Positions 40,894 to 50,304 of a stretch of DNA of 64,000 bases are shown in pieces. The stretch is from NCBI GenBank assembly GCA_013995675.1, contig VWRR01000010.1, positions 248,001-312,000 on the forward strand. Direction: 5' to 3'. Source of the DNA: Cyanidiococcus yangmingshanensis (taxonomy: Eukaryota; Rhodophyta; Bangiophyceae; Cyanidiales; Cyanidiaceae). Under the pieces are notes generated by a model. It was not told where the DNA came from. It made no database searches and saw only the letters and a list, made by a program, of their open reading frames with translations. A program made the position numbers and the translations under genes. The first letter of the stretch is position 1. The number at the start of each line of letters is the position of its first letter.

Positions 40894-43800
40894 ATGGACT
40901 TGTGGGTGGCCTTGGATGCCTGCGATAACGAGCTGCCATACGGGTGCTTAACGTTTGAACTTGCGAGGGTAACGGCTACCTTGGACGTTGTGCCGAACGA
41001 CGGCTCGGTTTGGGGCGCCGCCTCGCTTTCGCAGTTCATCACGGGAACGGGTCACCTTGCTAAGTTACAGGGACTCACCAAAGCCGATTCCGTTGACGAT
41101 CGTTTGGAGTTATTGGTCGAGCGTATTGATGAAACCCTTATTCAGGAACTTGTTCGGGTTGCGGAACGTGTCTCGGAGGCGCTCGACACAGGCTGGACTC
41201 CCCACCCATTCGCTTTACCGGAAACGGAGAGCGGCTCACCTCCAAGTACGTATTATCAGACGCCTACATCCACAATCGATGTTCTCGCTCCGCTGCAAAA
41301 ACGTCTGGGATCCTCAAGCCCGGCCCTTTTTCGGGCTGCGCGGCTGTCGCTGGAGCGTGCAGTAGTCACTCCGCCGGTCCGCACCGCTTGCCTCTGATCA
41401 GAGCGAAGCACGAAAGCGAACGCGAATCGAGCACGTTCGAAAGATGCTACCTTTGGGGCCATCTAGGACGTGTACCCTGCAGCAAGTATCCGATGCTGCA
41501 ACGACGACCAGCATGGAGACTATTGGGAAATTGCCCCCAACAGATGTGGTCTTATCGCCATGGGTAGCTCGAGACCTGCCAAGCGGATTCAGTGCCGAAA
41601 AGTGGAAGCAGAAGCAGCTATATCGCGAGAGCGGCGTGCTTCTTATGTCGGCAGTCAAAGCAATGGAAGCGTCGTGGCAGCATGAATCGGCCATATCGGT
41701 TGCCACGGTGAGTCGATTCTGTGCAGCGATGCGAATGCTGGGACGATTGCCTGAGGCCACGCTGGGGGATCCGCCGGAACTCGAGTCGATCCTTCGCCGT
41801 GGCCTGACATGCTGCCTAGACCTTTTGAGGGAGACCTCTGTGAATACTTGGGACCAACGAGCGATTATCGCCGAATGGGTTTTCTCTCTATCGCAAACGC
41901 CTGCTGACCTGTTTGAGAATGCACTCCAAGAGGAGCATTTGGAACTCTCAGTGCAAACGTTGCGCCAGGGACTTGACCGAGCGGCAAACTTGCTCGATCA
42001 ATCAGCTTGGGCCATCGATCATGCGGGATTCGAGAGCATCCCCCAAACTGATTCGACGCTTGATGGAGAGCGAGAGACGGGATGGCGTCTATGGAAGCGA
42101 TGCGCACTGCTGTTGGCCAAGCTCGCGGACCTGATGGGCTCACACTTGGGTGTAGGGGAGAGCCAGCACCTGCAATCCGTCTTTGTGGCGTTGGCAGCTG
42201 TCAATGTGGCGAATTCCATTGCCGATCGAGTGGGCGCCGCAGGTACGGAAAGTGGATGTTCCTGCGATCAGAAGGGAAATGAAGCAATTCTTCGCCAGCG
42301 TTTGGTCATCAACTGCACGCATACTTGGTGCAACTTACGTTCGATGTGTCCACTATCGCACCCTGATTGTGGATGAAGCCCAAGTGTTGCTCAAAAGTCC
42401 TGGACGCCTGGATGCACTCGGATGGCATGACGATTCAGGCGACAGGCTCGGCTACGTGGTCTTCGAACTGCACGGGAAGATATCCGCCTGTTGGACTCCT
42501 TTCAACGCTGCTCGATGTGATCGGTCGAACAAGTGTCGCCTCGTTCATGGAAAATAGCATAGGTAGTGCTTGTGCATCAAACGAGTCGACTAGAGACTGG
42601 CTAGAGCCAACATCCCGGCCGATCTCCGCGCCAGTTTTCATGCAGTCGGCCACGAGCGAGCTACTACAAGCTTCCGGTCCATTTATCGAGACCGCTCTCG
42701 AGTTGCTCTTCGCTTATTTGCCGCATCACAGGGATGCGCTGGGTTCCGTTTCCAGGAACCGCTTGGCGCTTTTGCTTCGTTATCTCGAGCATAGTCTTCG
42801 CCATGCCGTCTCGTCTGAACCGGTGTCTCTGATTCTGCTGCAGCTCCTCATCCGTCACACGCTGGCGTGGAGCGCGTCACTGGGGCATCAGCACACGAAT
42901 GAGAATCTTCACGCTGTGGAGAGATGCCTACGCATTGCAGACTTGATCCAAAGTCTTTTGAAAATGGAAGGTGTCTACGATCCGTCAACGTCAATTGATG
43001 AAAATTCCGAGCATCTGCGTGACACGCTGGTGGCACGAAACCCTCTATGGTTGTTGCTGGCGGGGCCGCTCGAAACGCACCATGCGGTTGATGACAGGTT
43101 GACCGAGCCGCAGTTACCGACGAGGCCACTAAGAAGATCGACATCACCGGTCCAGACGGGGCACCAGGCATCACAATTGCCCTCTCCAGCGGCCGTCATT
43201 CGATGTTTTCGATCATTCTTGGAGCGCTCACTTGGACTCCTTCGGGAAAGGGCGCTCGCCCTTTTGTATGCGGCGCTGGGCTCTCCTCGTGCGACATTCC
43301 GAGCCCGTGCAGTGCGTCTCTTTGGTGAAATGAGCCGCATGGACATCAAGGAGGGTTGGCAGGTCTCCCAGCGCGGTGTCGATCGCGCTGAACAGCCGAA
43401 TCTCCAAGAAACGCACAGCTCCATGGTCAATTCTCATGGAGCCGAGGCCCAGGTAGCCGCGATCCCGAAGTGCAGCACCAGAAGCGCGAGCGACACGCGA
43501 AAGTCTCGGTCAAACGGTCGATCCCGCTGAGTGTGCCGACGAGTCTCTCATCGACAAGGCTATTGCGCTTGCAACCGCATGTTGTCTAGATATGTCACCG
43601 AGAGTGCGTGAATCCGCCCTGGCGCCATATGTTTCATGGATGCATTGGAGCGGCAAACCCATCACTGCTTACACAATTGTATATAGCCGCCTTTGTGATG
43701 TATCTGTTACTGTGCGGCAACGGGCAATACAAATCCTGGACTCATTGCTCTGGGAAAAAGAGCCACTCAGTATGACGGATTGGGCGTTCGCCACCGCCCA

Positions 43801-50200: not shown

Positions 50201-50304
50201 TAGCAGACATGTATCGGAATCAGTTCCGTTCACCAGAGTCGTCTTCGAGCGAGTCCTCTGAGGCAGCAAGCGATCCCGAGCATGACAGCGACCGGATCGC
50301 TTAA
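47291..50304 (+). CDS. LIG1: DNA ligase I (ATP-dependent), about five frame changes
   Basis: Seals Okazaki fragments and repair nicks. DNA-binding domain: LEPNWKAGEPVPYSFLATAF, ERTPADLLPTVYLVINRLAP, ALLLQALADATGRSLSKLKE, FIARALQGRLRIRLAEKTV. Adenylation domain: CEYKYDGERAQIH with the nucleotide-accepting Lys, [59 protein letters not shown]. OB domain: WEVQCADLSLSPAY, KGISVRFPRLVRIR, ATTSAQLADMY. The N-terminal 330 residues are disordered and acidic. The first ATG (47291, MLHGWRQVFYLSLNNRIM) gives a presequence-like start, and ATGs at 47342 and 47357 would remove it, as in plants, where one gene serves mitochondria and nucleus. Homology continues across each change, e.g. MLAKP/VRSVAEVLNRF near 49150. 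All are +1. No PCNA-binding box was seen. Confidence 0.97.

Follow-up and report, generated by a model that had tools for sequence, protein, structure and literature searches.

In Plasmodium falciparum, contigs from PacBio reads are reported to have carried 25,352 insertion/deletion (indel) differences before short-read correction, against a genome size of about 23 Mb. The number fell to 11,093 once long homopolymers and TA repeats were left aside. Two nearly identical genes resisted correction, and seven apparent frameshifts remained in one of them (PMC5964635). Pervasive frameshifting in the cell has been described for Euplotes and for the mitochondria of Perkinsus (PMC9550989 for Perkinsus). 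Here we analysed a stretch of 64,000 bases (the window; G+C 55.4%, no N), in which the reading frames of conserved genes are broken, among them those for DNA ligase I (LIG1), MnmE, IF-2 and a putative Scc2-type cohesin loader. A sequence-only reading had claimed that the frame changes all go one way, as if one base had been added each time (+1). Our results confirm this direction, and the breaks are most likely assembly mistakes and not a new mode of reading genes.

The direction of the steps was analysed by frame-aware alignment of the DNA to profiles of 11 bacterial MnmE and 79 IF-2 proteins (79 of the 80 IF-2 loci gave a usable open reading frame, ORF) and to the human LIG1 sequence. Steps of +1, -1, +2 and -2 were allowed, the loss of two bases costing 2 units more than one extra base. 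At a frameshift penalty of 6, all nine steps were +1, and the two-base loss was never chosen. Three of the steps were found in LIG1 (47900..50301, plus strand), with credible intervals at 48738..48752, 49146..49159 and 49454..49482. Four were found in MnmE (26484..27862, minus strand) at 27819-27830, 27546-27559, 27140-27152 and 26820-26841, and two in IF-2 (30503..32200, minus strand) at 31519-31546 and about 30956, the latter in an unaligned stretch. With the penalty lowered to 4, MnmE gained one -1 step (27219) and one +1 step (27206).

Matching pieces of Pfam domains concurred for LIG1, MnmE and IF-2 and gave one +1 step each in three further genes. In the stomatin-like gene (15969..17191, plus strand), Band_7 and Band_7_C lie in frames one step apart; the others are a GT71-type gene (Pfam Mannosyl_trans3; 28384..29896, plus strand) and a transporter of the MFS type (51412..53010, minus strand), where the step is near the C-terminus and the second piece, with E 3.4e-4, is weak and falls short of the Pfam cut-off. 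The name MFSD1-like for this transporter comes from the sequence-only reading. These three genes rest on Pfam pieces because the relatives of the stomatin-like protein were too few for exact alignment (1 of 12 genomes). Taken together, 12 of 12 frame changes seen by homology at the main penalty were +1. Losing two bases shifts the frame exactly as gaining one does, and neither the Pfam pieces nor the likelihood described below can separate the two.

Between the breaks the proteins are conserved. The Pfam N-terminal and middle domains of LIG1 are split between frames, and the read-through protein matched human LIG1 with E 1.5e-174 and 585 bits over query residues 29-646. A relative of its C-terminal part was not found in the viral contigs, the sole collection searched for a second copy. 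The cohesin loader gene (Scc2/NIPBL/Mis4 type; 40897..46496, plus strand) is spread over three frames. Its HEAT segment, the single-frame ORF at 43457..43927 (plus strand), matched a profile of three solved homologues with E 7.7e-8, the best of 1024 window ORFs (next 2.3), and this sequence match supports the assignment. For Scc2 there was no Pfam family and no direct match to a cohesin loader in the PDB, whether single frames, a typed read-through piece or the single ORF was used. At 45380-45560 (plus strand), two frames of the Scc2 gene overlap, and on visual inspection each seems conserved (HPDAVIKAV in one, LHLLGVLNRL in the other). A protein that includes both would require a -1 or +2 step near GTGTG, a hint of a different kind of step.

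The direction was also analysed without homology by a frame hidden Markov model (HMM) in which an extra base and a missing base cost the same. Its codon model was derived from 13 long ORFs of the window, which overlap the tested spans. At the high penalty used first, nothing was called, and the penalties were then varied. The ratios of extra to missing bases were 21:2, 19:1, 13:2, 16:0, 8:0, 15:0, 0:0, 12:0, 0:0 and 2:0 in ten settings. In 12 further settings they were 38:11, 29:5, 23:4, 22:4, 64:48, 48:19, 37:10, 28:6, 110:78, 69:45, 46:21 and 40:11. Extra bases outnumbered missing ones in every setting that made any call. Lax settings inflate both counts (64:48 and 110:78 are the laxest), and 29:5, 23:4 and 22:4 represent moderate settings. 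For a control, symmetric random indels were placed into intact window ORFs in six runs. From 129 extra and 135 missing bases inserted, 107 and 112 were recovered, and without inserted indels three events were called.

A maximum likelihood fit, in which the rates of extra and of missing bases could vary independently, was then made over 17 spans (33,868 bases) picked by homology or as long ORFs. Per codon, the fit gave 0.004 for extra bases and 0.0001 for missing ones, corresponding to about 1.3 extra bases per kb. Spans picked as long ORFs are clean by selection, which lowers the rate and leaves the asymmetry unaffected. Equal rates were worse by 10.11 log units (p about 7e-6 at 1 degree of freedom), a fit without extra bases was worse by 58.13 and one without missing bases by only 0.15. 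In six simulated symmetric sets the gain over equal rates was at most 0.6. Gene by gene the gain was small, with the largest values for Scc2 (3.4) and LIG1 (2.9), and MnmE and TauE, when fitted alone, would allow missing bases.

The number of steps per gene proposed by the sequence-only reading was reproduced in part. Its counts of 5 for LIG1 and 3 for IF-2 were matched by the likelihood (about 5 and about 3), whereas homology placed 3 and 2. Scc2 gave about 15 extra and no missing bases instead of 12, and GPAT9, in which the acyltransferase domain is in one frame, gave about 3 instead of 2. For MnmE the proposed 4 were also found by homology, and the likelihood gave about 4 extra and 1.4 missing bases. 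The TauE/SafE gene (55205..56990, plus strand) is indeed broken; in place of 4-5 steps in one direction the likelihood gave about 9 extra and 6 missing bases, leaving the direction ambiguous. A missing base called in Scc2 at 45387 was rejected, as two +1 steps explain the call as well and disallowing missing bases costs this gene nothing in the fit. That reading had also put the broken genes at 40894-50304. Scc2 and LIG1 lie there, but the other genes are at 11-34 kb and 51-57 kb.

The sites themselves were then compared. Eight of the nine steps were confined to 12-29 nucleotides, and for the ninth the interval was set by hand for the motif test. On average, bases in runs of at least two received 0.43 of the posterior weight at the eight sites, against a background of 0.42, and the sites at 27140-27152 in MnmE and 31519-31546 in IF-2 are probably outside runs (0.08 and 0.07). 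At the LIG1 joins, visual inspection had suggested extension of a homopolymer, and the sequence-only reading stated that the extra base often lengthens a two-base run. By this count such a preference is not above chance. No k-mer of 3 to 6 bases was in excess over random coding intervals at the nine site intervals, where the power is weak. A stop codon of the old frame was found at or adjoining none of the nine sites, the nearest being 17 to 118 nucleotides downstream. All 61 sense codons occur in the 2,855 codons of six intact genes identified by homology, and no sense codon is therefore unused. The read-through paths of LIG1, MnmE and IF-2 at penalty 4 held no stop in 1,635 codons, with an aligner that itself penalises stops.

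The extra bases are unevenly distributed over the window, as tested with 16 of the 17 spans (TauE/SafE excluded). The region at 1933..10036, with an aldo-keto reductase (plus strand), a BET bromodomain protein (minus strand) and an ORF of 1204 codons (plus strand), had no extra bases; a single missing base was called there, at 9821, on the margin of the 1204-codon ORF. The 13 spans from 11.7 kb onward had a mean of 1.33 extra bases per kb (left against right, p 4.8e-5). On this right side clean genes are interspersed with the broken ones, namely those for an EF-hand protein, a CAP-domain protein, proteins of the argininosuccinate lyase and CAF1 types and an ORF of 838 codons. A decoding rule should carry a signal and should not track map position, whereas errors of assembly arise without one and go with coverage or mapping quality.

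With high confidence, we attribute the extra bases to consensus errors of a long-read assembly; their absence from the cell's DNA and the sequencing platform we infer. An insertion-biased error of this kind, which had been proposed from the letters of the window, is supported by the single direction, the lack of a motif, of stop codons at the sites and of an unused codon, the conserved protein between the breaks and the clean stretch at 1.9-10.0 kb. Insertions exceeded deletions in the HMM, the alignment and the likelihood, and the indels depended on neither codon nor motif (eight sites in the run test, nine in the motif and stop test), both as expected for long-read consensus errors. PacBio read errors are described as mostly indels, random and not biased to homopolymers, and the lack of run preference at the eight sites agrees with this profile, whereas Nanopore errors tend toward deletions (PMC4719071). 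Cyanidiales assemblies made from PacBio reads and polished with Quiver only are public, one of them with a G+C content of 54.33% (PMC6629376). The record would most likely have been assembled from error-prone long reads without short-read correction, with PacBio continuous reads fitting best, and the genes right of 11 kb would have retained an inserted base roughly every 0.75 kb. Correction could have missed such a part of the window if it is repeated or of low depth. The cohesin loader, LIG1, MnmE, IF-2 and the others would then be ordinary intact genes of the organism.

Several points weigh against consensus errors. Right of 11 kb, the genes are still unevenly affected (p 0.014). Raw PacBio reads have a two- to threefold excess of insertions, which the near-pure insertion bias seen here exceeds, so that a further filter must be assumed. 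A coverage of 46- to 69-fold with three rounds of Quiver is expected to leave fewer errors than the window shows, and the window may accordingly derive from a different record. In the literature, surveyed mostly as listings, we found no measurement that compares insertions with deletions in PacBio assemblies after polishing. The coverage and polishing just named are those given for a PacBio-only Cyanidiales strain (PMC6629376), which is not shown to be the source of the window.

The single direction in genes with otherwise conserved proteins would also follow if the extra bases were real and a ribosome or an unusual tRNA skipped one base at each site. Such pervasive +1 frameshifting has its precedents in Euplotes and Perkinsus, but it is very unlikely here, as none of the nine sites is at a stop codon, no common motif was seen at these few sites and no sense codon is left unused. 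Six genes identified by homology are without shifts, and the genes at 1.9-10.0 kb are clean. We consider it just as improbable that a red algal nuclear genome holds surplus single bases in many genes which are skipped during expression without a sequence signal. If the genes were pseudogenes or part of a decaying duplicate region, genuine mutations would explain frame breaks in several adjoining genes. The pooled rate of missing bases near zero argues against this (MnmE and TauE alone would allow some), as do the strong conservation between the breaks in the read-through LIG1 and the lack of stops in the read-through codons, the latter partly by construction, and we rate pseudogenes lower still than skipping.

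Editing that removes one base from the RNA before translation would likewise yield one direction and a continuous protein. The sites have no common sequence and are regionally uneven, and we know of no such one-base editing in red algal nuclei, although no search was aimed at it; its probability is slighter again. Short spliceosomal introns with a length of 3n+1 could produce steps in one direction. At eight sites, homologous residues run directly across the joins with one surplus base within the 12-29 nucleotides, and the joins cited in the sequence-only reading (GTGAI/AVFRLSG, QPA(T)/PGAF and a third of 12 protein letters, not shown) are present in the alignments. In addition, three Cyanidiales are listed with 27, 36 and 44 introns per genome (PMC9812998), which counts if the window belongs there. 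Introns are the least probable of these explanations.

Several eukaryotic-type genes, LIG1, the BET bromodomain gene and Scc2 among them, are present in the window, and no tRNA gene was found in its 64,000 bases with ARAGORN. The placement in Cyanidiophyceae suggested by the sequence-only reading is plausible. The CAP-domain protein (33229-34425, minus strand) and a protein without Pfam match that looks similar by eye (35769-37037, plus strand) possibly form a divergent pair. Intact ORFs without a Pfam match at E 0.01 are those of 1204 codons (6425-10036, plus strand) and 838 codons (19817-22330, plus strand). An endosulfine-like piece lies at 58347-58526 (plus strand), and a weak NFACT-like match under the Pfam cut-off at 63318-63998 (plus strand) is truncated by the window end. 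Two tetranucleotide arrays were observed, CACG x 9.8 at 47153-47191 and GCGT x 11.5 at 18441-18487.

If the breaks are errors, users of the record meet genes that are broken or wrongly spliced. In the annotation of Cyanidioschyzon merolae Soos, about 10% of the genes are given as multi-exonic, compared with 26 genes in strain 10D (PMC6629376). A gene finder that bridges frame errors could create such an excess through false introns, although the window is not shown to be from Soos. If the extra bases were real, the triplet rule would be broken in a nuclear genome.

Compared with the known systems, the window resembles Euplotes in that many genes are affected and the step is +1. The shift sites reported for Euplotes are stop codons, in contrast to the nine sites here. 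The mitochondria of Perkinsus are described with frameshifts in all genes, also with many shifts, which advance by +1 or +2 at conserved places with unused codons (PMC9550989), whereas the window has no unused sense codon and contains nuclear-type genes. From the PacBio assembly of P. falciparum, as described, the window differs in that its sites are in ordinary sequence and the pooled fit has insertions only (PMC5964635). With that assembly it shares single-base indels at about one per kb, genes that are intact apart from apparent frameshifts and, probably, a local failure of polishing (PMC5964635).
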